NCBI GenBank assembly: GCA_002713215.1
Contig: PAVO01000019.1
Span: 310,001 to 374,000, forward strand
DNA from: Crocinitomicaceae bacterium
Lineage (GTDB): Bacteria; Bacteroidota; Bacteroidia; Flavobacteriales_G; Salibacteraceae
Direction: 5' to 3'
DNA: 64,000 bases
The notes below the pieces were generated by a model. That model was not told the origin of the DNA. It saw nothing but the letters and a program-made list of their open reading frames with translations, and did no database searches. Position 1 is the stretch's first letter; each line of letters begins with the position of its first letter. Made by a program: the position numbers and the translations under genes. Shown piece after piece: positions 25,379 to 38,022 of the stretch.

Positions 25379-26359
25379 TTATATTTCCCTTACCATTAAT
25401 CCCTCCGCAAATTCTTTTAGAACCAATTTTTGGTTTTCGGGAATTTCAATCGTGTTAAGTGCAATTCCTGCCGATAAATAATAACGGTTCATTTCGGCTT
25501 TCGCTCTGGACTTAATGTCTAATTCGTCGAATATAGACTTCACCTTTTCGATTTTTTGCGGAGCCTTGAGATCAGCACTGTAATACGTTTGGTTTAATTC
25601 TTCTTTAAGCATCTTCGGTGCCCGCTCCATGGCTTTTACATAGAGGTAACTTTTCTTTCCTGCCAGAATATCTCCACCTGGAGACTTACCAAATTTTTCT
25701 GGATCTCCGTACAAATCAAGGATGTCGTCCTGAATTTGAAAGGCTATGCCGAAGTCCTTTCCAAAGTCATAGATCAGATGCTGGCTTTCTTCGTCGGCAT
25801 TGGCCATTATTGCACCCAGGCGCAAAGCTTCACCAAGCAACACTGCGGTTTTTTGTTTTATCATGGATAGATAATCATCCATTGAAACATTTGTTGATGT
25901 TTCGAAGTTCATATCCCATTGTTGGCCTTCGCAAACCTTAATTGCTGTTCTATTAAAGCTTGAAAGCAGGGATTGTATTTTATCGTTGCTGGCTTTCTGA
26001 AGGTATTGATAGGCCAAAATCATCATGGCATCACCGCTTAGAATGCCTGTATTGGTATCCCATTTTTTATGTACGGTTTCTTTTCCGCGGCGCAATGGAG
26101 CTTGGTCCATTATATCGTCATGCACCAGCGTAAAATTGTGAAAGATTTCAACCGCAATAGCCTGATTAATGGCTGCTTTGTAGTTGCCTCCAAACATTTC
26201 GCAGGATGCCAGGGTACATACAGGCCTTGCTCGTTTGCCTTTGAGTTTAAGTATGTAGTCAACCGGGTCATACAACTCGGTAGGCCGGTCAGAAAATTCA
26301 ACCAAACCAAGTGCATTTTCAAAATGCTTTTGAAGTTCGTTTATGGAATGCAAAGCCAT
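25379..26359 (-). CDS. Polyprenyl (geranylgeranyl/farnesyl-type) diphosphate synthase
   Basis: Trans-isoprenyl diphosphate synthase of 326 aa, building C15-C20 or longer chains from IPP and DMAPP. First aspartate-rich motif DDIMD is at 81-85, followed by RRGKETVH. The second, DDILD, lies in FQIQDDILDLYGD near 215. GKRARP near 41 and the KxTA-like KQKTAVL are intact. Phe76, five residues before the first motif, suggests a short to medium product, but chain length cannot be fixed from sequence. It ends 1.4 kb beyond the HMG-CoA reductase operon on the same strand and could supply its prenyl donor. Confidence 0.9.
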   Translation of the reverse strand: MALHSINELQKHFENALGLVEFSDRPTELYDPVDYILKLKGKRARPVCTLASCEMFGGNYKAAINQAIAVEIFHNFTLVHDDIMDQAPLRRGKETVHKKWDTNTGILSGDAMMILAYQYLQKASNDKIQSLLSSFNRTAIKVCEGQQWDMNFETSTNVSMDDYLSMIKQKTAVLLGEALRLGAIMANADEESQHLIYDFGKDFGIAFQIQDDILDLYGDPEKFGKSPGGDILAGKKSYLYVKAMERAPKMLKEELNQTYYSADLKAPQKIEKVKSIFDELDIKSRAKAEMNRYYLSAGIALNTIEIPENQKLVLKEFAEGLMVREI

Positions 26360-26367
26360 AGTATTTT

Positions 26368-27228
26368 TTAATCGAGAAGACTTAGCAAATATTTTCCGTA
26401 CCCACTTTTTACCAGTGGTTCTGCTACTTGCCTTAATTGCTTATCATCAATGTATTTCATTCTCCATGCAATTTCCTCAATGCAAGAGATTTTCATGCCC
26501 TGTCTTTTTTCAATTACTCCTACATATTGACTTGCTTCATTAAGAGAATCAATCGTTCCGGTGTCTAACCACGCCGTTCCACGATCCAATACAGAAACAC
26601 TTAATTTTCCTTGCTGAAGGTATTCTTTGTTTACATCTGTAATTTCGAATTCACCCCTTGCTGAAGGCTTTAAGTTTTTGGCAATTTCAACCACATGGTT
26701 GTCATAGAAATAGAGTCCGGGAACCGCAAAATTTGATTTGGGGTTTTCTGGTTTTTCTTCAATCGAACGGGCGATGTTGTTTTCATCAAACTCAACTACA
26801 CCATAGCGTTCAGGATCTGAAACATGGTAGGCAAAAATGATTCCGCCATTAGGGTTGGTACATTTTCTTAAATCGGCAGGTAAGCCTGTTCCATAAAAAA
26901 TATTATCGCCAAGAATTAAGCTAACGCTGTCGTCTCCGATAAACTCCTCTCCAATCACAAACGCCTGAGCCAGTCCATTGGGAACTTCCTGTATTTTATA
27001 TTGAAAGCTACAACCCAGTTTAGATCCATCTCCCAGCAAACGTTCAAATAAGGGCAAGTCATGAGGAGTGCTAATGATTAAGATTTCCCTTATTCCGGCA
27101 AGCATAAGTAAGGATAGAGGATAGTAGATCATGGGCTTATCGTAGATAGGCATGATTTGCTTACTTACGGCTATGGTAAGAGGATGTAACCTGGTTCCTG
27201 ATCCTCCCGCGAGAATAATTCCTTTCAT
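26368..27228 (-). CDS. rfbA: Glucose-1-phosphate thymidylyltransferase
   Basis: Makes dTDP-glucose for deoxysugar synthesis, 286 aa from ATG 27228 ([18 protein letters not shown]). The longest frame starts 21 bases earlier, inside the promoter, so I reject it. The nucleotide loop is [30 protein letters not shown] follows, and [19 protein letters not shown]-like [15 protein letters not shown] and IEEIAWRM are RmlA hallmarks. No rfbB, C or D is in the window. It lies 8 bases from the polyprenyl synthase and may be co-transcribed with it. Confidence 0.95.
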
Positions 27229-27246
27229 ACTAAAAAAATTCGGCGG

Positions 27247-27254
27247 CAAATGTA
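27247..27254 (-). promoter_or_regulatory. Putative -7 promoter element for rfbA
   Basis: On the minus strand this reads TACATTTG, an exact -7 match. It lies 19 bases before ATG 27228 and supports that start. A clear -33 box is not seen. Confidence 0.5.
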
Positions 27255-27258
27255 GAGA

Positions 27259-27723
27259 TTACATTGCTTGCAATTGCTCAAAAGTCAATCGGGCATTTAA
27301 CCATTCGTTGCCGTACTGTGTTCCGTATTTATCGTAAAAATTAATGGCGGCTTCGTTCCAATCCAACACCTGCCACTCGAAGCGGGAAACCTTTTCTTTT
27401 TTAGCAATCTGTAGTACTTCCTCAAACAGCAAAGTGCCAATACCATTTTTCCTGAGATGTTCTTTTACAATAAGGTCTTCCAAATGAATGGACTTGCCCT
27501 TCCAGGTACTGTATTTGTAGAAGTAGAGTGCTATTCCAACAATTTTACCGTCTTGTTCTGCAACGATAAAATCAAAGAGTTTATTATCACCAAAGCCATC
27601 CTTTAAGAGTATTTCTTCAGTCATGATAACCTCTTCTTCAGCCTTTTCAAACTTGGCCAATTCCTTAATCAATTCAAGCAATTGGGTTATGTCTTCCTCT
27701 GTTCCTTTTCTAATTTGAGGCAT
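27259..27723 (-). CDS. GNAT N-acetyltransferase, diamine-acetyltransferase-like
   Basis: Acetyl-CoA-dependent transferase of 154 aa. It resembles spermidine/spermine and thialysine acetyltransferases: ALYFYKYSTWKGKSIHLEDL, the CoA loop RKNGIGTLLFEEV, and the closing RFEWQVLDWNEAAINFYDKYG. The likely acceptor is a small amine, but the exact one is open. It lies between rfbA and the lipid-like operon; a near-consensus -7 box (TAGTTTCG, minus strand, 27741-27748) gives it its own promoter. Confidence 0.85.
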   Translation of the reverse strand: MPQIRKGTEEDITQLLELIKELAKFEKAEEEVIMTEEILLKDGFGDNKLFDFIVAEQDGKIVGIALYFYKYSTWKGKSIHLEDLIVKEHLRKNGIGTLLFEEVLQIAKKEKVSRFEWQVLDWNEAAINFYDKYGTQYGNEWLNARLTFEQLQAM

Positions 27724-27784: not shown

Positions 27785-29278
27785 TTACTTAAGTACGGTC
27801 TTCAATTTTTCATAGTCGATTTTCGAATTGTGTCTGGGGTCCATTGGGATTTTTGCAAGTATTGAAATTCTGTTATGCCTAATTCCATGAACAAGCTCTT
27901 TTACTTTTTCCTTAGCGAGCTTAGATTGAACGACAAGTACTACGTCATTCTTGATTTTAATTACCGTGCCGACTTCAATTCCTTCTATAGCCTGTACTTG
28001 GTTTTCAATTATAAATGGAGAAATTATTTCGTTATTGGAATGAATGAGTTGCTTACACCGACCCGTTAAAAATAGTTCTTCGTTTTGAGTGTATCCGCTG
28101 TCTCCGGTACGATGCCATATTTTGTCATCAACGATGATTTTGTTTTGACGAAACGCTTCTTCATTATTAAAATATTGTTTGAGAACATGAGGCCCTTCAA
28201 CGATTATTTCTCCAATTTCACCTTCTTCAAGTTCTAGCTGATCCAATTCAGATTCACTGCTGACCACAATCGCTCCTTCTTCAATAGCAATTATTTTAAC
28301 CTGAGCTTTGTGGTATGGGATACCAACAGGCAACCCTTTATCCAGTTGTTTATTCGTTGCCAATTCCTTAGCGGAGATTGAACTTATTGGTTCTGCCTCG
28401 GTAGAGCCGTATACGATTTTTGATTCTGTTTTGGGAAAGGCATCACAATAGAGTTTAGCTTCAGTTGGAAATACAGGAGCTCCTCCTGTAAATACCTTGT
28501 CCAGTTTTGGGAAATTGAGCTTATTCTCTTTTGAATATTCAGCTACTTTTTTGATGAAGAAGGGAGAAGCGGTTATTCGGGTTACTCCATTTTTTTGAAG
28601 TTGACTTGCAATTTTGGAGGGATTTAAGGAATTAGGCTTGGTCATTTTGAAGTTTGCAATTACCGATGTACATCCTACACCCAGGTTAACAAAAAGCACA
28701 ATAGGCAACACCGGCATGTCAATATCGGTTTCACTGGGGTCGATTTCATCAAGTAGAGCGTTGAACTGTTCGTTTAAAAAACCATGTGACCGCAAAGCAG
28801 CTTTTGGAGTTCCGGTGCTTCCTGTAGTAAAAGTGATTAATGCAGGAGTTTCGGCCTCTACTTTCTCCATAGTTGGAAGCCCTTGCTCCATTTTGGTTAG
28901 GTTTAATTTGATTGGAATTCTTCTTAACGGAGCTGAAAACCAAGAAAACGCGGTTGCTTTAAACCCTCCAATAAAACCACGGCATCGGGCAATTTCGCAG
29001 CACAACTCCAACCTTTTCATGCTCACCCATTCGTCCAGAAATACAGCTGTGGCGCCAATGTAAAAAAGCGCAAGTACAATTCGATACAGGTTTATGCTCA
29101 TGGGGGCAAAAACCAATACCCGGTCACCTTTTTTAAGTCCCTTTGATTTAAAGTAAGCTGCGGTCTGAATTACTTGCTTATTAAGTTCCTCGTAGGATAT
29201 CTTCTTATCCAATTCAATAATCGCAGTATGGTTGGGATACTTTTTAGCTGCGTTTAGAAAGAGATTTACAATATTCAT
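27785..29278 (-). CDS. AMP-dependent ligase, OleC-like
   Basis: Adenylate-forming enzyme of 497 aa that would activate a fatty or hydroxy-fatty acid. The ATP loop is ITFTTGSTGTPKAAL at 148-162. YGSTEAEPIS is the adenylate motif, WHRTGDSG the hinge region, and the C-terminal catalytic Lys lies in NSKIDYEKL. The block GGAPVFPTEAKLY with TEAEPISSISAKEL, and the short helix LDEWVSMKRLELCCEIA, recall OleC-type ligases that close beta-lactones; this comparison is from memory. It is the last gene of the seven-gene operon and overlaps the preceding gene by 4 bases. Confidence 0.82.
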   Translation of the reverse strand: MNIVNLFLNAAKKYPNHTAIIELDKKISYEELNKQVIQTAAYFKSKGLKKGDRVLVFAPMSINLYRIVLALFYIGATAVFLDEWVSMKRLELCCEIARCRGFIGGFKATAFSWFSAPLRRIPIKLNLTKMEQGLPTMEKVEAETPALITFTTGSTGTPKAALRSHGFLNEQFNALLDEIDPSETDIDMPVLPIVLFVNLGVGCTSVIANFKMTKPNSLNPSKIASQLQKNGVTRITASPFFIKKVAEYSKENKLNFPKLDKVFTGGAPVFPTEAKLYCDAFPKTESKIVYGSTEAEPISSISAKELATNKQLDKGLPVGIPYHKAQVKIIAIEEGAIVVSSESELDQLELEEGEIGEIIVEGPHVLKQYFNNEEAFRQNKIIVDDKIWHRTGDSGYTQNEELFLTGRCKQLIHSNNEIISPFIIENQVQAIEGIEVGTVIKIKNDVVLVVQSKLAKEKVKELVHGIRHNRISILAKIPMDPRHNSKIDYEKLKTVLK

Positions 29279-30303
29279 AGCTTTAGTCCGTACAGCGGGT
29301 AGTTTTTATGGTAACCGCTGCCTTTTGCATACTTTTCAGAGATCAACCTCGAAGCATTGTCATTTATCATAAAGGCATGAATTACCTTTTCATAGCCTTG
29401 TTCTTTAGCAATTTGAACGGTTTTTCCGGCTAAATAACTTCCTATTCCTTTGAAAGGAGAAGTTCGCTTTCTGGCCATTGATTTAATAATTAATGTTTTG
29501 CTTGGTTTTATTGAATCATAGTGGTCAGGGATAGAGAAAATAAAAGCTTGAATTTCTCCAAGCTTGTCTTCAACAATCCAAACCAATTCCGGATCGATTA
29601 GCGATTTTATTTTTAGGTATTTCGATACAAATTCAGAAGTGGTAATTGGGGTAAACAGAAAATTGGCAGAAAAAGCTTTGAGGCTAAAAGTGGCAATTTT
29701 ATAGAGTTCATTTTCTAAATCATTGAGGTTTAAATTTCGAAACACGGCTCCCTGGTTCAGGTACATTTGCTCAAATTTCTTTAATCGTTCCTCTTCCACA
29801 TTAAGTTCTTCATCCAGGTTCGAGAAATACTGGGAAATGGGAGAAAATCCAAAGTCAATAAAATGTTGGTTGTAATAAGCGTGGTGATAGGGCTCCATAA
29901 AGAAATTAGGTTGGTCATTGTCCATACTAAATCGGTGGTTGTTCCATGTGGATCCCTCCATGGGTCCAATCAGAAAATCGTACCCCTTCAATTGTGCCAT
30001 CCGCTTGGCATTATCTAATAAAGCATGAGAAGCATTAGGATCGTTCACGCATTCATAACTACCAATGCAGGCTGCGAATTGTCCATCGATCATTAAGTTT
30101 TCGTTTTCATAAAATGCAAAGCGACCAATGGCCTTGTCACTATCAAGTAGTACATAACATCCTTCCAAATGGGTTTTCACGGGGTCATGGCCCAATATAA
30201 ACCGTTGGCTGTTTTGGGGATAGAGTTTTTTAGGCAGGTTGTAGAATAAATCAAAATGTTCTTGACCCGGCTTTGTTTTCAATATTTTGTATGAAGAACT
30301 CAT
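29275..30303 (-). CDS. GNAT-fold acyltransferase-like protein
   Basis: Protein of 342 aa that looks like a double GNAT fold of the YghO type. The second half has KTLIIKSMARKRTSPFKGIG followed by SYLAGKTVQIAKEQGYEKVIH, a plausible acyl-CoA loop and its helix. The first half carries FIGGFE-like elements (AIGRFAFYENENLMIDGQFAACIGSYEC) and GPMEGSTWNNHRFSM. The acceptor is unknown. Overlaps of 4 bases on both sides tie it to the membrane kinase-like gene before it and the AMP ligase after it, so acyl transfer within the same pathway is a fair inference. Confidence 0.7.
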   Translation of the reverse strand: MSSSYKILKTKPGQEHFDLFYNLPKKLYPQNSQRFILGHDPVKTHLEGCYVLLDSDKAIGRFAFYENENLMIDGQFAACIGSYECVNDPNASHALLDNAKRMAQLKGYDFLIGPMEGSTWNNHRFSMDNDQPNFFMEPYHHAYYNQHFIDFGFSPISQYFSNLDEELNVEEERLKKFEQMYLNQGAVFRNLNLNDLENELYKIATFSLKAFSANFLFTPITTSEFVSKYLKIKSLIDPELVWIVEDKLGEIQAFIFSIPDHYDSIKPSKTLIIKSMARKRTSPFKGIGSYLAGKTVQIAKEQGYEKVIHAFMINDNASRLISEKYAKGSGYHKNYPLYGLKL

Positions 30304-30977
30304 ATTATCGTAAACTCCTTTAAGGTAATAAGCGCAACCACGGCACCAGTTGGTATGGTTAGGTTATCCCAACCGTTGTGTGTTAGCGCTTCTGCAAATA
30401 CCGTAACGAGAGCCACACTCGTTGAAACCAACAATACCTGATAACTTGTAAAGCTCTCCAGGTTTATTAAGAGTAATGCACAAGTAAGAAAAGCAACCAC
30501 AACAAAGCCCAATGAACCACAGAGTGTTTTGGTTTGCCCCAAAACTGTATAGGGCCTCCAGCACCATTTTTTTCCAAGGAGGGCTGCTACTGGGTCTGCA
30601 ATGGCCAACACCAAAATGGGGATGTAATAAAATATATATTGATTGTAATTGGCGTAAATCAGGTAGCACGAATAAACTATTACGGGGTAAAGAAAGCTTC
30701 CCCTGGTGACCCGGTCAACCGCATTTATAGCCGGAAGAAGTTTCCAGACCTGGCTAGCGATAAGTATAATTAGAAAACTGCCACACAAAGCCAGGACCAA
30801 CCAGTGATTCCCAATTAAAGGTGGGAATAACATGGTAAGTAGCCCCGTAACAAGATGAACGTATTTTCTTGTTATTTCCGCATCAATGCTTTTGATGTGG
30901 TAGAGCCATTCGGCACTTGCAAAGAGTGCAAGGAAGGCAATGGCCAAATACAAGGTATTGATAAAGCTAGGACTCAT
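30300..30977 (-). CDS. Phytol/dolichol kinase-like membrane protein
   Basis: Integral membrane protein of 225 aa with about seven helices. The pattern RKYVHLVTGLLTMLFPPL near residue 37, ADPVAALLGKKWC near 135, and TKTLCGSLGFVVVAF mark the CTP-dependent polyprenol/phytol kinase and CDP-lipid synthase superfamily. The C-terminal EALTHNGWDNLTIP is also typical. It could phosphorylate an isoprenoid alcohol or make a CDP-activated lipid. Neighbouring UbiA and HMG-CoA reductase genes favour an isoprenoid substrate. It overlaps both neighbours by 4 bases. Confidence 0.8.
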   Translation of the reverse strand: MSPSFINTLYLAIAFLALFASAEWLYHIKSIDAEITRKYVHLVTGLLTMLFPPLIGNHWLVLALCGSFLIILIASQVWKLLPAINAVDRVTRGSFLYPVIVYSCYLIYANYNQYIFYYIPILVLAIADPVAALLGKKWCWRPYTVLGQTKTLCGSLGFVVVAFLTCALLLINLESFTSYQVLLVSTSVALVTVFAEALTHNGWDNLTIPTGAVVALITLKEFTII

Positions 30978-32059
30978 TGCTTCACATCAATATTTACACT
31001 GGAGTAAAAGAAACCATTGTCCTTTTTCGTCAGTTTTTCGGAAGATTTCTGGTCTTTGTTTAACTCCTGAATCACCCGTGACATTTGCCTGTCGACCATT
31101 AAATTCCAATAAGCAAAACGAGCGCCTTTATTTGAGTTTTCAACCAGGTTTTGGGAAACCGCTTGAAATACTTCGGGATTCATGTATTCAAAAATATTCG
31201 ACAAGTTGAATTTATCGAAATCGGAGAATTTATTGAAGGCATCTTCTGCCAGCCCATGATAAGTTGTAAGCCGATCTATCCGCGATTTTATGATTTCAAA
31301 ATTAGATTCCCGGGCATAGTAAGGTAGTTCCGTTTCAAAACTTCCCTTCATAATGAATTGAAGAAAATAATTGTTTTGGCTTGCAATAGAACTTAGGTGG
31401 TCTTTTGACTGGTTCAGAATAAAGGTAGAAACTGGAATTTTCACCTCTTTTAAAAAGGCGGGGTCTCTGCCAAACCGTCCCATTACAAATTTGCTGAAGA
31501 ACAAGTTGAAGAGTAACCTCCAACGCCAGTTGTTCCAGGTTGAATGAAAGAACCGGACTTGTTCCTCTTCTGTTTTGATTGTAAAGAGTTGATCCACGTT
31601 TTTTTGAGTATGAACCAGTGGTAAGATTTTGGTTCTAAATAGCTGAAAGTACTTTTCGAACTTCCCCTGATAGATTATTCCATTCTCAATTTCAGAGATT
31701 CTCAAAGTCCAAAAGTCATTTATATCAGGCTCCAGGTTTTGGGCTACTTTGGAATAAAGAGCCTTTCTTCTCGCCGATTTCTGGAAACCCAGGAATTCAA
31801 GAAACTTGCGGTAGTCGAGCGATTTAAAAGCTGCTTTTTTTAGTTCGATTAAATACAGCTGAACCAAATTGATATCCACTGCAACAACTATCGCAGGGTC
31901 GTTAACCAACAGAGAAAAGCTATTGTCTCCGGCAGAACCAATGGAAAAAACCCGATCATTGGGCTGAACTTGTAAGCCATCCAGAAGAACATCCGCATCT
32001 TCCCAGCAATTGGCATAGCGGATATAATTGTGACGAATTTTCTCCAATTGATCACCCAT
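30974..32059 (-). CDS. DUF3419 / BtaA-like SAM aminocarboxypropyl transferase
   Basis: Protein of 361 aa of the DUF3419 family. Its known member BtaA moves the 3-amino-3-carboxypropyl group of S-adenosylmethionine onto diacylglycerol, the first step to betaine lipids. The N-terminus YIRYANCWEDADVLLDGL and the SAM loop VFSIGSAGDNSFSLL (37-51) are diagnostic, and AVDINLVQLYLIELKKAA binds the ribose. A long helical part follows. No BtaB-type N-methyltransferase is found nearby. It overlaps the dikinase by 8 bases and the kinase-like gene by 4. Confidence 0.85.
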   Translation of the reverse strand: MGDQLEKIRHNYIRYANCWEDADVLLDGLQVQPNDRVFSIGSAGDNSFSLLVNDPAIVVAVDINLVQLYLIELKKAAFKSLDYRKFLEFLGFQKSARRKALYSKVAQNLEPDINDFWTLRISEIENGIIYQGKFEKYFQLFRTKILPLVHTQKNVDQLFTIKTEEEQVRFFHSTWNNWRWRLLFNLFFSKFVMGRFGRDPAFLKEVKIPVSTFILNQSKDHLSSIASQNNYFLQFIMKGSFETELPYYARESNFEIIKSRIDRLTTYHGLAEDAFNKFSDFDKFNLSNIFEYMNPEVFQAVSQNLVENSNKGARFAYWNLMVDRQMSRVIQELNKDQKSSEKLTKKDNGFFYSSVNIDVKQ

Positions 32060-34634
32060 TGTTTAGGATTTTAATTTTACCCGTACTTCCGTCCATTTCA
32101 ATTTCATCACCGGTTTTTAGGGTTCTCAACAAACCACTAACACTAACAATGCAAGGGATCCCCATTTCCCTGGATACTATGGCAGAGTGACTTAGTAAAC
32201 TTCCTCGTTCAACAATAATAGCTGAAGCAGTAGGAAATAAGGTAACCCATCCAGGGTCAGTACTCGAAGTAACTAAAACGTCTCCATTTAATGAATCAAT
32301 GCTATTGGGGTCCAATACCATCTGTACTTTAGCTTTTACTCGTCCAGGGCAACATCCTATACCGCTGAGGTCTCCAGAAATGGGTTCAAGTTTTTCTTTG
32401 GAATAAATGTATTGATCGCTGAAATCATTGCCATAAGTGAAAAACCGTTCCTCGGGAATAGGTTGCTCTTTGTAAGAAGAGAAATCTGATTTTCGATCAT
32501 TGATTTTGGATTTTAATGCATCGGAAAATTGATGGTTCTCCAGTTGTTTAATTTCTCCCAGCTTCAAATAAAAAATATCCCTGGGGTTAGCCAAAAGCCC
32601 ATTTTCCGAAAGTTTGTTTCCCAGGGCACTGAACATGGTACGAACCATTCCAAACCCCCTGGTTCTTTCGTACCTAAGGTTTTCACGATTGCTTACCAGG
32701 TCCCTCGCTTTGTTTAGTACGTAGTAGAACCATCGTTTTTTTATCGGCTTTCCTTGTAGCTTTTCGTTTATTGTGGATTCAGCAGAACTCCTCAACTTGG
32801 AATCCAAACCGGAATGAGTTTTTTTCTTCGTGATTTTTTGCTCTACATAGGATTTAATAACCTTGACAAACAGGACGGGGTTTTGAGAGTAGGAAATTGT
32901 TTCCAATTTTAATTCTCCCACACACCGCTCTCCAAATTTGGCAATGTAGGAGTCTATTTCGGTTTTAATTTCAGGATATTTATTGGTGCTTAGTTCTTCC
33001 CATATTTTGTCCGGAGTGTTGTTATTGAAAAGGTCATTGGCCGATTCATTATCCATAACCTTTTTTGCAATTTCAATGCTACGGTGAATCGGTTCAACCG
33101 AAATTATATCCCGGCTTCCGCATAGTAGGTCGTTATGGATATTCGGTTCATCAGGACAAAGTTTTTTCGTTTGCTTTTGAAGTATTCCAAACCAGATCAT
33201 AGCAAAAAAATCGTTGATAAGCGGAGCCTTCCATTCCAATAGCAAGGTCTTTTCAAACTCATTGTACTTAGCGATTATTTCGGTAGGGCTAAGCTGGTCA
33301 AAGTCCATTGAATGATATCGATTCATTACCCCATTTAAGTGGGCCATAAATCGTTTTCGTTCTTTAGAAAGGTTACGTTGAAGTCGAATCATTTTAAACA
33401 CCATGAGTACAATCCGTAGCCAGGCCTGCCCCTTGCTCATTTTGTAATCTTCCTCAAGTTCAAACCGTTCTTTTACGCCCATCATGTTTTCCATGTATTC
33501 GGCGTTGAGTTTGTACCCCGGGAGCATAGCAAGCATTTTATACCAGCTTAGTAGGTTATAATAAACCCGGCCTCTAACCAGTCCAAGAGTATTGGCAAAA
33601 ACGTTGGCATGTTGTTCTATTTCATTCTCTTTAACTCCCATCAAACCAACGAACTGCCGGTATACCATTTCATACATTTTCAGGATAAATGAAAAGGTGA
33701 GGGGTGTTGTTATTCCCGGGTAGGACTCAACTATGTTGCTGTTGTCCCATAAGGTATACTCTCCTTGTTTTTTTCGGGACGTAATTGGGCGGGTTTGCAA
33801 CAGGTAAAGTTGATGGTTGTAATAGGCAAACTCAATGTCCTGTGGTGACCCAATTTTATTTTCGAGACGGTCCAATAAGGCGGCTATTTCATTGACCTGT
33901 TTATCGTTGATTGAAGGTAAATCTTGTTTTTCCTTTTCTACAGCAACTGTTACAATACCCGAGTTATTATTCGCAACAACGGCATGGGTTTTCTTAACTA
34001 AGGTTTGCGTTATTTCACCTGAATTAAATGTAAACGTATCCGCATCGAGTTCTCCGGAAACCAACCCTTCTCCTAATCCATAAACCGAAGAAATCACTTT
34101 GCTTCTGGGGTCACCTGAAACCGGGTCCATACCAAATGCAACTCCAGAAACTTCAGACGGAATCATTTCTTGAATAATGACACCTATTCCAAATTGTTCA
34201 GGCAAATCATTTTCTCGTCTATAATTTAGTACGCGTTCTGAAACCACCGAATTCCATACCGCTTTTATTTTTTCTTCAAGCTGGTCATATGGAACATGAA
34301 GGAATGTATCGAACTGTCCGGCAAATGAAAAAAGCTTACCGTCTTCGTCGAGTGCCGAAGAGCGTACTGCGTATGATTTTGATTGATAATTGTCGTCGAA
34401 AAAAGATTGAATATCTTCTAGTAGTTCTTTGGGGACGGTGACCCTGGAAAGCTCTTTTTTGGCCTCGTCTACATCGGTTGAACTCAATTGGTCCATTAAA
34501 ACGTTGCTCGGAATTACTGTCCAATCTGGAATTTTGACACCCAGTTTTTCTAGCTGGAATAAGTTTGATGCTTTTCCTCCAACCAAATCGAGAGGGAATT
34601 CATCCGAGTTTTTATGTGCCAAAAAGTCGCTCAA
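32052..34634 (-). CDS. Rifampin-phosphotransferase-like dikinase
   Basis: Soluble 860-aa enzyme with the order ATP-grasp domain (about 1-320), large helical middle (320-750) and phosphohistidine domain (755-860). The first shows GGKASNLFQLEKLGVKIPD, SYAVRSSALDEDG and IIQEMIPSEVSGVAFG. The last carries the catalytic His in RGSLLSHSAIVSREMGIPC. The PEP/pyruvate barrel of PEP synthase is missing, and length and layout equal rifampin phosphotransferase. Such enzymes split ATP to AMP and two phosphates, one of which goes to a hydroxyl of a small molecule. The start is TTG overlapping the UbiA stop (TTGA). The acceptor here is unknown. Confidence 0.85.
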   Translation of the reverse strand: MSDFLAHKNSDEFPLDLVGGKASNLFQLEKLGVKIPDWTVIPSNVLMDQLSSTDVDEAKKELSRVTVPKELLEDIQSFFDDNYQSKSYAVRSSALDEDGKLFSFAGQFDTFLHVPYDQLEEKIKAVWNSVVSERVLNYRRENDLPEQFGIGVIIQEMIPSEVSGVAFGMDPVSGDPRSKVISSVYGLGEGLVSGELDADTFTFNSGEITQTLVKKTHAVVANNNSGIVTVAVEKEKQDLPSINDKQVNEIAALLDRLENKIGSPQDIEFAYYNHQLYLLQTRPITSRKKQGEYTLWDNSNIVESYPGITTPLTFSFILKMYEMVYRQFVGLMGVKENEIEQHANVFANTLGLVRGRVYYNLLSWYKMLAMLPGYKLNAEYMENMMGVKERFELEEDYKMSKGQAWLRIVLMVFKMIRLQRNLSKERKRFMAHLNGVMNRYHSMDFDQLSPTEIIAKYNEFEKTLLLEWKAPLINDFFAMIWFGILQKQTKKLCPDEPNIHNDLLCGSRDIISVEPIHRSIEIAKKVMDNESANDLFNNNTPDKIWEELSTNKYPEIKTEIDSYIAKFGERCVGELKLETISYSQNPVLFVKVIKSYVEQKITKKKTHSGLDSKLRSSAESTINEKLQGKPIKKRWFYYVLNKARDLVSNRENLRYERTRGFGMVRTMFSALGNKLSENGLLANPRDIFYLKLGEIKQLENHQFSDALKSKINDRKSDFSSYKEQPIPEERFFTYGNDFSDQYIYSKEKLEPISGDLSGIGCCPGRVKAKVQMVLDPNSIDSLNGDVLVTSSTDPGWVTLFPTASAIIVERGSLLSHSAIVSREMGIPCIVSVSGLLRTLKTGDEIEMDGSTGKIKILNNG

Positions 34635-35569
34635 AACAAAAGCTTATTTATCATTGGTATTGCTCCAAGCGACAGGTACATGAGCGCCGTCCAGCCAGCC
34701 GATGCATATTCGATAAGCTTACTGGTTTTATCATTTTGTTTACCAAAAAATGACCAGGACCACCCAGGTAGAGAGAAAATGATGAATACCACACCAAACA
34801 CTGCTATTGAGAGGCTTCCATAGCCTGCATAGTTAGAAGCACCAATGGCAAGAAGCATGGTCACAAACATGAGTGCCAGCCAAACCAAAACCCCTCCCCG
34901 AGTGCCATACATTCCGGTATAAGAAACAACGCCCTCTTCTTCGGATTCAGGTGTTCTTATTTTTCGTCCAAACTCCAGCACCAACCCATTCATGTACGAT
35001 ACACAAAAGAACCAAGCCAGGCCCTGGTGGGGAGATGCCCCTTCTAATAACCAATCCAACCCACTCGAATAAATGTCAATTAAAGGGATGATAAACATGT
35101 GCGATGTGATGTAGATAATTTGCCTTTTTTTGAGCCATTCGGGCACAAAAAACTCAACAGCCATTAATAATAAATAGGCAAGCACTATTCCATAAAGTAG
35201 GAGCATTTGCAGTTGGAACAGGGCAATGATGGCAATTTGAATAATGGCCACAATCCAACCGATGGTTTTTAGTTCCTTTAATGAAATAAGGCCTCTTGGT
35301 ACAGGTAAGTACTTTCGGTACTTAGCATCGTCTTCTTTGTCTTTAAATTCATCGAAAACGCGAACCAAAAAGAACAAGGTAACCGTTGCAAAAATTCCAA
35401 TCAAAAAGTCCTTCCAAGAAATAAATCCGGTTTGGTTCCTACAGATTCTTGAATAGGATACCGCAGAAAATGTAAAAGCACTAATCATTAGCCCATGAGC
35501 TAAAAATGGAAAGCGCTCCTTTTGGTAAATGTAAAATCGCCTGAGAAAGGGAAGGTTATTTTCCTGCAT
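34631..35569 (-). CDS. UbiA-like membrane prenyltransferase
   Basis: Membrane protein of 312 aa with eight or nine helices; I choose ATG 35569 over the GTG one codon before. The aspartate-rich site that binds prenyl diphosphate through magnesium is Asp73, Asp77 and Asp81 in RVFDEFKDKEDD, followed by KYLPVPRGLISLKEL. The second aspartate site is less clear, with IDIYSSGLDWLLEG and RKIRTPESEEEG as candidates. It belongs to a branch of the UbiA family without a characterised member known to me. It overlaps HMG-CoA reductase by 14 bases. Confidence 0.78.
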   Translation of the reverse strand: MQENNLPFLRRFYIYQKERFPFLAHGLMISAFTFSAVSYSRICRNQTGFISWKDFLIGIFATVTLFFLVRVFDEFKDKEDDAKYRKYLPVPRGLISLKELKTIGWIVAIIQIAIIALFQLQMLLLYGIVLAYLLLMAVEFFVPEWLKKRQIIYITSHMFIIPLIDIYSSGLDWLLEGASPHQGLAWFFCVSYMNGLVLEFGRKIRTPESEEEGVVSYTGMYGTRGGVLVWLALMFVTMLLAIGASNYAGYGSLSIAVFGVVFIIFSLPGWSWSFFGKQNDKTSKLIEYASAGWTALMYLSLGAIPMINKLLF

Positions 35570-36938
35570 CACCTTTGTTTCGACCTAAGCTTTCGTGTGC
35601 TCTAGTAAAATGGCCGGCCGACATGGCTGCGGCAATTGAAATTTCGCCGGATAAGGCCACAGCACAGCAGATTTCAGCAAATTTTTTGGCCTTTCCAACT
35701 CCGGCACAATCCATCATTTTAAGGCATTCATTTTGGGTTGGAAGTTTGGTGCCGCCTCCAATTGTTCCAACAATTAAACTCGGTAAAGTAAGAGCTACAT
35801 ATAAATCTCCTTGGGCTGTTACTTCCATTCGGGTAATTCCAACAGAGGATTCTGAAACACAGGCAACATCTTGGCCGCATGCAATAAATAATGCAGCAAG
35901 TCCATTGGCCACATGTCCCTGGGCACCAATGGCACCGCTTTGTACGACTCCCAATGTGGAAGACTGCCAATAATCGGCTATTGCTTTAGGGGTTGTTTTT
36001 AAAACATGATTAACCACATCTTTTAGAAGTACGATTTCGCTGGTCACTTTTTTGCCTCGAGAACTGCTAAACGAAAGGGAAGTCGCTTTTTTATCACCGC
36101 TGTAATTACTCTCAATGTACCACTCAATGGGCTTATGAGGAAAGTTGTCAAGAATGTATTTACATACATTGTCCGTGCAAATGGTGACCATGTTTTGTCC
36201 AGAAGCATCCCCTGTGAAGTAATCGAAAGTTAGGATTACACTATTTCCTTCCACATTGGTTCTCATTTCATTGAGTTGAGCATAATTACTGCTTTCGCTG
36301 ACGACATTTTTAAAATTGTCCAAATGTTCGTGAACCCATTTAACAAAGAGCCCCATAATGCCCATGCTGTCAAATTTGAAAAACGGACTTCGTTGTACGC
36401 TTTCGGCGGTACACATGGCTGAAATTCCGCCACTCAACCGGCAAGCTTTCATTCCCCGGTTATAGGAAGCAACCAAAGCTCCTTCGCTAGTTGCCAGGGG
36501 AACAAAGAAATCTCCCACGGCATTGGTGCCATTGATTAAAATTGGTCCGGCCAATCCAACCGGAATTTGGGCCATTCCAATGAAATTTTCAATATTTCCT
36601 TTGAGGCTTTCCACCTGATCTATTTCTGTTGGGTTCGATAAATGGTTGATTCGGATATTGTTTTGGTTCAAAAAATCAATCCTTTGATTTTGGTTTTCCT
36701 TAGAATATCCCATAGGATATGCATAATCTTCCAATTCTTTTACCTCTTCGGCACTTCTCGGAGCTATTTGCTCTACGAATTCCTCAGGAGAGATCTGACT
36801 TTCAATGCGGTCAATTATTTTTTGAACTCTTTTATGATCGTGCGACATGACTTCAATGAAATTTTTATGGGTCAAAAATTGAGATTTTAAAGATAAGCTT
36901 AGTTGCATATTTTGCAACGGGTATAATGAAGTTCGCAT
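35556..36938 (-). CDS. HMG-CoA reductase (class I-type)
   Basis: Reduces HMG-CoA to mevalonate with two NADPH, the committed step of the mevalonate route. All four catalytic residues are visible: Glu152 (ATSEGALVAS), Lys283 (SGDKK), Asp357 (IACGQDVA) and His448 (FTRAHES). ENFIGMAQIPVGLAGPI and GTIGGGTKLPTQ resemble class I enzymes, not the NADH-using class II. The usual DAMGMN is changed to DASGQN at 244-249. It is soluble, 460 aa; ATG 36908 and ATG 36848 are alternative starts. It heads the seven-gene operon, and no other mevalonate-pathway gene is in the window. Confidence 0.88.
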   Translation of the reverse strand: MRTSLYPLQNMQLSLSLKSQFLTHKNFIEVMSHDHKRVQKIIDRIESQISPEEFVEQIAPRSAEEVKELEDYAYPMGYSKENQNQRIDFLNQNNIRINHLSNPTEIDQVESLKGNIENFIGMAQIPVGLAGPILINGTNAVGDFFVPLATSEGALVASYNRGMKACRLSGGISAMCTAESVQRSPFFKFDSMGIMGLFVKWVHEHLDNFKNVVSESSNYAQLNEMRTNVEGNSVILTFDYFTGDASGQNMVTICTDNVCKYILDNFPHKPIEWYIESNYSGDKKATSLSFSSSRGKKVTSEIVLLKDVVNHVLKTTPKAIADYWQSSTLGVVQSGAIGAQGHVANGLAALFIACGQDVACVSESSVGITRMEVTAQGDLYVALTLPSLIVGTIGGGTKLPTQNECLKMMDCAGVGKAKKFAEICCAVALSGEISIAAAMSAGHFTRAHESLGRNKGDAGK

Positions 36939-37329: not shown

Positions 37330-38022
37330 ATGAAAACTGCAATTCTAGTTGACGGTGGTTTTTTTCTGAAAAGATACCAGTATATTGAAGGATTTGAGAA
37401 AGGTGATGATGCCGAAACAGTAGCAAAGAATCTAGTCTCTTATTGTTTTAAACACATACAACGTATAAATAACTATCGCAACCGGTACAATTTGCCTCCA
37501 ACGGAGCTTTATCGTATTTTCTTTTATGACGCCAAGCCTTTCGATGGAGACTCAACTAATCCAATTTCTGGTAAGGCAATGAGTTTCAAAAAAACAGAGG
37601 TTTTTAAGTTCAGAAATGACTTATTTACATTCTTAAAGAAGCAACGGAAAATTGCATTGAGACTTGGCTTTTTAAAGAACTCATCAAAAAAGTGGAACAT
37701 TAAATCTAGACATACTAAACCCTTACTTGATGGAAAAATAAAGCTTGAAAACTTAAATGCTTCTGACTTGGATTTTCCTTTAAATCAAAAAGCAGTTGAT
37801 ATGAAGGTAGGTTTGGATATTGCTACTCTTGCCTTTAAGGAACAGGTAGACCAAATAATTTTGATTGCTGGTGATAGTGATTTTGTGCCTGCGGCCAAAT
37901 TTGCCAGAAGGGAAGGAGTTGATTTTATTCTAGATCCAATGCTTAATAACATTGACCCATCGCTCCACGAGCACATTGATGGATTAATGACAATAAAGCG
38001 AATGAATGAAGGAAGCAATTGA
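37330..38022 (+). CDS. NYN-domain protein (LabA/PIN-like putative RNase)
   Basis: Protein of 230 aa with the NYN domain, a PIN-like metal-dependent nuclease fold. The acidic residues expected in the site are present: Asp8 in AILVDGGF, Asp157 and Asp163 in KAVDMKVGLDIA, and Asp182/Asp184 in IAGDSDFVPAAKFAR. A basic insert (about 100-135, KKQRKIALRLGFLKNSSKKW) could bind RNA. It lies directly behind the structured leader, so cleavage of its own leader is an attractive guess. NYN proteins act in RNA turnover and in some defence systems; no defence partners are near. Confidence 0.85.
   Translation: MKTAILVDGGFFLKRYQYIEGFEKGDDAETVAKNLVSYCFKHIQRINNYRNRYNLPPTELYRIFFYDAKPFDGDSTNPISGKAMSFKKTEVFKFRNDLFTFLKKQRKIALRLGFLKNSSKKWNIKSRHTKPLLDGKIKLENLNASDLDFPLNQKAVDMKVGLDIATLAFKEQVDQIILIAGDSDFVPAAKFARREGVDFILDPMLNNIDPSLHEHIDGLMTIKRMNEGSN

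Follow-up and report, generated by a model that had tools for sequence, protein, structure and literature searches.

In the window analysed here, a stretch of 64,000 nucleotides from a Crocinitomicaceae bacterium (assembly GCA_002713215.1, contig PAVO01000019.1, positions 310,001 to 374,000), seven minus-strand open reading frames (ORFs) follow one another head to tail between 36938 and 27785 and almost certainly constitute one co-inherited pathway unit. Designated A to G in transcription order, these genes encode proteins related to 3-hydroxy-3-methylglutaryl-CoA (HMG-CoA) reductase (HMGR), UbiA, dikinases, DUF3419, phytol kinase, GNAT and AMP ligases. Gene A, in spite of its family, does not appear to serve isoprenoid supply, a conclusion in which we have high confidence. 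As for the unit as a whole, our best reading is that it makes a lipid-like product bearing an aminocarboxypropyl group derived from S-adenosylmethionine (SAM), and we regard this complete scheme as about evenly balanced between right and wrong.

Bacterial and archaeal genomes were scanned with gene D, which yielded 80 loci. The order A-B-C-D-E-F-G is complete and on one strand in 40 of them (span 8.7–12.1 kb), while the families are out of order in none, the remaining loci being devoid of some genes, often at a contig end. These counts rule out a chance adjacency of the seven genes; homologues scattered without order, the outcome that the preliminary description of this stretch had named as fatal to its proposal, were not what the 80 loci revealed. 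Moreover, the pairwise identities of the seven proteins are correlated (r 0.51–0.90 over 28 complete loci), and the D/E junction is an exact 4-base overlap in 44 of 70 loci, even though such overlap counts are biased upward by taking the first start codon for each gene. According to record titles, the Bacteroidota range covers Flavobacteriales, Crocinitomicaceae, Saprospiraceae, Chitinophagales, Cytophagales (Dyadobacter, Rhabdobacter, Cesiribacteraceae) and Parapedobacter. The unit is widespread but patchy in this phylum, with about 11 of 395 evenly sampled genomes, from several families, having this type of D (E-value below 1e-90). Outside Bacteroidota, C-D-E-F-G is found in metagenome-assembled genomes (MAGs) of Gammaproteobacteria (L074) and of Chitinispirillaceae, Fibrobacterota (L078). 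The A-B pair that completes these two sets was located, in the same genome, where a contig breaks off (L101) or on a separate contig (L102). B-C-D-E-F-G occurs in an Endomicrobia MAG (L077, L079), and a Spirochaetes MAG has D and G next to each other but lacks C, E and F there (L080). No description of the cluster was found in the open literature (subscription papers and preprints were outside that search), and the pathway may thus still be called undescribed, as it was at the outset.

The seven overlapping leftward genes of the preliminary description are all present in the ORF listing, in which the successive junctions, from A/B to F/G, overlap by 17 (or 14), 4, 8, 4, 4 and 4 bases. The range of 4–14 bases given earlier is therefore correct if gene B starts at the ATG that is its second codon, which makes the A/B overlap 14 bases, but not if it starts at GTG (17 bases). 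Likewise, the family names first proposed (HMGR, UbiA, dikinase, DUF3419, OleC-like) are backed by Pfam and NCBIfam profiles, the matches being AMP-binding, GNAT (weak), DUF3419, PPDK_N with PEP-utilizers, UbiA and HMG-CoA reductase (class I, TIGR00533).

To characterize gene A, we compared the residues of 60 relatives (a few genes being fetched twice), using the human numbering. Glu559, Arg590, Asp690, Lys691, Lys692, Asn755, Asp767 and His866 are unchanged in all 60, including the catalytic tetrad of class I HMGR (Glu559/Lys691/Asp767/His866). Three other positions are altered just as uniformly (60/60): Ser684 is replaced by Glu, Lys735 by Ser, Ala or Gly, and Met657 by Gln; human and archaeal reference enzymes retain Ser, Lys and Met at these places. 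In HMGR, Lys735 forms a salt bridge with the terminal carboxylate of HMG (PMC9500038) and Ser684 is part of the HMG pocket (PMC7503714), so the A family is devoid of the pair that defines HMG-carboxylate binding in class I enzymes. Because the catalytic residues are kept whereas these anchors are lost, A would most simply be read as a thioester reductase that still works, but on a substrate lacking the HMG terminal carboxylate, and it is quite probable that its substrate is something other than HMG-CoA. An HMGR tree, which has modest support and few references, was not used as proof. HMGR-like proteins of 516–538 residues with the same signature also exist outside the cluster (L105, L106, L108, L111), one of which (L111, genome G042) is encoded just downstream of two small genes, by eye a STAS protein and an anti-sigma-type kinase.

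The genomic context of gene A is also at odds with the mevalonate supply that the preliminary description had assigned to it. The window's genome (G000; 5.0 Mb, 98.9% complete) encodes DXR, of the methylerythritol phosphate (MEP) pathway, yields no match to mevalonate-diphosphate decarboxylase (TIGR01240) and has gene A as its single HMGR. Among 37 further cluster-bearing genomes with A, DXR is present in 27, of which 24 are without a strong decarboxylase match; the cluster gene is the sole HMGR in 21 of these 24, while the other three (G061, G092, G095) have a second HMGR with the same altered residues. Conversely, the ten cluster genomes with the decarboxylase all encode a second HMGR, and both kinds of HMGR can be observed within one genome (G013). 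The mevalonate HMGRs of L097 and L099 depart from the class I references in the majority of the active-site positions aligned, which is why we take them as putative class II enzymes. In view of this genome content and of the replacement of Ser684 and Lys735 in all relatives, we reject mevalonate supply by A.

Regarding the other enzymes, B scores 40.7 bits against PF01040 (cut-off 34.2) and has a conserved first Asp motif (DEFKDKEDD, fitting [ND]xxxDxxxD) followed by a Glu-based second motif, as a member of the UbiA superfamily; no solved structure was found for it by sequence. C combines PPDK_N with the swivelling-His domain (PEP-utilizers), is devoid of a PEP-binding domain and carries the motif GSLLSHSAIVSREMG, all of which make it an Rph/PigC-type protein, and its nearest named relatives include RedH, PigC and Rph. 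For E, the window protein itself has no Pfam match, yet 9 of 52 relatives match CTP_transf_1 (PF01148, best 5e-5) and the motifs E.TRK..H..G, DP.AA..GK and G.DN are near-invariant among them, which would fit the phytol-kinase-like label that the gene was first given. With 177.7 and 175.9 bits, G is OleC-like but far under the cut-offs of the OleC beta-lactone synthetase equivalogs (900 and 850). Two local features may be added here: the E kinases outside Bacteroidota (L074, L077, L078) are extended at the C-terminus by a membrane domain of about 200 residues, and a gene for a protein of 123 or 124 residues lies between B and C in two loci (L016:3957-4328 and L010:2677-3051), without a Pfam match for the L016 copy, which is the one tested.

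D matches PF11899 over its whole length (232.9 bits, residues 12–357), as BtaA does, conserves the SAM motif SIGSAGDN and is modelled with a predicted local distance difference test (pLDDT) score of 94.8; no solved structure was found for it by sequence. DUF3419 genes with much higher scores also occur in relatives of the window organism (G005:C14:7945-9060 and G011:C1:4913658-4914779), unaccompanied by the other six genes in the displayed stretch; these are possibly ordinary betaine-lipid genes. Elsewhere, a ketosynthase-like gene (by eye, of a polyketide synthase; L092:2640-3920, genome G028) follows a broken DUF3419 gene. In F, two GNAT domains span the whole chain (AlphaFold pLDDT 94.7), the fold being close to MAB_4324, MshD (mycothiol synthase) and Eis (Z 16–22 over 265–298 residues) and also to N-myristoyltransferase; the family motif is GPMxGSTWxxxRF, and a search of solved structures with the sequence gave only chance-level matches. 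The original GNAT-like label is thus right as to the domain, even if the Pfam match is weak, but the predicted structure corresponds more precisely to an N-acyltransferase fold with tandem GNAT domains.

Beyond the gene order, the enzyme families, the separation from isoprenoid supply and the altered pocket, the chemistry that we infer is as follows. G would activate a carboxylic acid to an acyl-AMP or acyl-CoA, and A would reduce an acyl thioester to a primary alcohol at the expense of two NADPH. This alcohol would be phosphorylated by E, a CTP-type kinase, while C, as an ATP-dependent swivelling-His phosphotransferase, would add a second phosphate or activate the partner. B would couple an acceptor in the membrane either to this activated chain or to a prenyl one; D would transfer the 3-amino-3-carboxypropyl group of SAM onto the product of B, and F would acylate the amino group. 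In some lineages, a CdsA- or CarS-like cytidylyltransferase and a CDP-alcohol phosphatidyltransferase would turn the lipid phosphate into a phospholipid bearing a head group. The part of this scheme in which reduction precedes phosphorylation is moderately favoured, whereas an amino-lipid as the end product falls a little short of an even chance. The series of steps announced by the preliminary description (two unlike kinases acting on an alcohol, transfer of a prenyl chain, an aminocarboxypropyl group taken from SAM, acylation) is plausible.

Variant loci bear on the fate of the alcohol. In four of them (L095:3188-5503, L096:7386-9689, L103:1071-3812, L109:7904-10228), an HMGR-like protein with the same altered pocket is fused to an APH/EcKL kinase, and desaturase-family, CarS-like, CDP-alcohol transferase-like or dikinase genes lie beside one or another of these fusions. 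A further locus (L094, genome G045) combines A and E with a desaturase-family gene, a CDP-alcohol phosphatidyltransferase gene (CDP-OH_P_transf) and a CTP_transf_1 gene. The fusions, like the genes for CDP-alcohol transferase, cytidylyltransferase and desaturase found next to A, point to a probable phosphorylation of the alcohol that A would form. Genes for a CDP-alcohol phosphatidyltransferase and a CTP_transf_1 protein are inserted beside A or C in five loci (L027, L033, L041, L069, L107), and a CarS-like gene in another (L067). Since the window's genome has no close homologue of the CDP-alcohol transferase, this module is optional and was rejected as a universal part of the unit. Finally, L113 has the five core genes B to F rearranged as D-B-C-F-E, with both A and G missing from the locus, the homology of its F and E being confirmed by profile comparison (E-values of 9e-14 and 5e-25); no HMGR was found in the corresponding genome (G029).

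Several observations weigh against the scheme as we formulate it. In G045, the set includes A and E but neither D nor G, which means that the steps need not always follow one another in the same way. D has 233 Pfam bits, compared to 393 and 368 for the DUF3419 proteins of the relatives G005 and G011, hence its acceptor may be different; its model retrieves only weak matches in the PDB, to SAM methyltransferases, and its aminocarboxypropyl activity is predicted from DUF3419 membership. Furthermore, the absence of HMG-CoA is not inferable from G000, where the HMG-CoA synthase profiles PF08540 and PF01154 have no match, because these models also miss genomes with mevalonate genes and are thus uninformative.

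The same genes can be arranged differently. In a ceramide-like route, which is the main rival and which we hold to be unlikely, D would aminocarboxypropylate a lipid alcohol, G would convert the alpha-carboxylate into a thioester and A would reduce the latter to a 2-amino-1-alcohol, with Glu684 binding the ammonium; phosphorylation by E and N-acylation by F would then lead to a sphingolipid-like phospholipid with a methionine-derived backbone. Such a route is consistent with the adjacent D-G pair of the spirochaete L080, with the joint lack of A and G in L113 (and of any HMGR in G029), with the invariant S684E, which places an acidic side chain at the site expected for the HMG carboxylate, and with the N-acyltransferase fold of F. 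Nevertheless, G045 has A and E with no DUF3419 gene in the genome, the HMGR-APH fusions also occur without D beside them, and desaturase-family neighbours suggest a long-chain substrate. A tentative reading, which we hold to be less probable than not, is that a whole family of HMGR-like enzymes, extending over Bacteroidota and at least three other phyla, was recruited away from mevalonate to form lipid alcohols from other acyl thioesters, and that the unit makes a new class of membrane lipids with a methionine-derived amino backbone, perhaps a second, serine-independent route to sphingolipid-like phospholipids.

A soluble secondary metabolite, instead of a membrane lipid, appears rather improbable. 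C would then activate one partner for a condensation, in the manner of PigC/RedH or Rph, which its nearest named relatives recall, while a P450 and an SRPBCC protein would tailor the product: a P450-like gene does follow G in Crocinitomix-type loci, an SRPBCC (Polyketide_cyc2) gene lies between F and G in many loci, and the distribution is patchy in the Bacteroidota sampled. On the other hand, B and E belong to families of membrane enzymes, and several lineages add genes for CdsA/CarS and CDP-alcohol transferase to the unit. As for the version of the preliminary description, in which mevalonate made by A feeds isoprenoids to UbiA for a prenyl aminolipid, it can point to the UbiA and kinase-like genes and, in a few lineages, to a polyprenyl synthase gene, but it is very improbable, considering the MEP genome without mevalonate-diphosphate decarboxylase, the separate HMGR in every cluster genome having that enzyme and the loss of the HMG anchor residues.

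Three genes downstream of G (Table 1) are specific to certain lineages. In the near relative L004, a polyprenyl synthase gene follows G together with the two other downstream genes of the window, whereas L001 and L042 have a different polyprenyl synthase (31–33% identical) after G. A polyprenyl synthase, which in the window was formerly seen as a possible source of the prenyl donor, thus belongs to the unit in only a few lineages. On the other side, a plus-strand gene (37330-38022), NYN/PIN-like by eye, is divergently transcribed, about 390 non-coding bases separating it from the unit.

Table 1. Genes of the unit (A to G) and lineage-specific neighbours, in window coordinates.
Feature	Description	Position	Strand	Basis
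gene A	class I HMG-CoA-reductase-like protein, 460 aa, first gene of unit	35556..36938	-	Pfam/NCBIfam, residue comparison
gene B	UbiA-superfamily membrane transferase, 313 aa, GTG or next-codon ATG start	34631..35572	-	Pfam, motif
gene C	ATP-dependent dikinase-like phosphotransferase, 860 aa, TTG start	32052..34634	-	Pfam/NCBIfam, motif
gene D	DUF3419 (BtaA-related), predicted SAM 3-amino-3-carboxypropyl transferase	30974..32059	-	Pfam, motif, model
gene E	phytol/dolichol-kinase-like (CTP_transf_1 superfamily) membrane protein, 225 aa	30300..30977	-	motifs, matches of relatives
gene F	tandem-GNAT acyltransferase, 342 aa	29275..30303	-	Pfam (weak), predicted fold
gene G	adenylate-forming acid ligase, OleC/PRK09274-like, 497 aa	27785..29278	-	Pfam/NCBIfam, RHxxKI motif
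small GNAT	lineage-specific neighbour	27259..27723	-	4-base overlap after G in near relative L004
RmlA-type nucleotidyltransferase (named by eye)	lineage-specific neighbour	26368..27249	-	synteny with L004
polyprenyl diphosphate synthase	lineage-specific neighbour	25379..26359	-	Pfam/NCBIfam; same place in L004

If our reading is true, a whole family of proteins is misannotated as "HMG-CoA reductase" in bacteria that rely on the MEP pathway, which affects the inference of isoprenoid pathways from genomes, and the unit would define a class of lipids that no assay was found to have sought in cultured genera, such as Dyadobacter. In this respect, the contradicted mevalonate step makes the finding more unusual. 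Compared to known systems, A shares with the class I HMGR of the mevalonate pathway the fold and the catalytic tetrad, but differs from it by its substitutions at 684, 735 and 657, and it is found in MEP genomes or beside a second HMGR, in a unit without mevalonate kinase or decarboxylase. The CTP-type kinase motifs of E and the UbiA transferase B recall phytol/dolichol kinase and the phytol salvage of vitamin E synthesis (VTE5/VTE6 with UbiA), except that genes for chlorophyll phytol or homogentisate are missing and that the alcohol is probably made by A. C has the domains of rifampin phosphotransferase and PigC/RedH, but within a lipid-type unit, while G resembles OleC of the Ole operon (OleABCD) by its sequence and its RHxxKI motif, but OleA, OleB and OleD were not recognised among its listed neighbours. 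The archaeal-type ether-lipid genes of the FCB (Fibrobacteres–Chlorobi–Bacteroidetes) group (PMC7852524) are approached in some lineages through the UbiA transferase, CarS-like and CDP-alcohol transferase genes; yet, no geranylgeranylglyceryl phosphate (GGGP) synthase is recognised among the listed genes of the unit, in which DUF3419, HMGR-like, GNAT and AMP ligase genes come in addition. Lastly, in the synthesis of the betaine lipid diacylglyceryltrimethylhomoserine (DGTS) by BtaA/BtaB, a DUF3419 protein is similarly the predicted enzyme for the transfer of 3-amino-3-carboxypropyl from SAM to a hydroxyl of the lipid. No BtaB-type methyltransferase is found among the seven genes or two scanned neighbours (it was not sought elsewhere in the genome), and the unit differs from that system by its six other, unrelated genes in fixed order and by the divergent subfamily to which D belongs.

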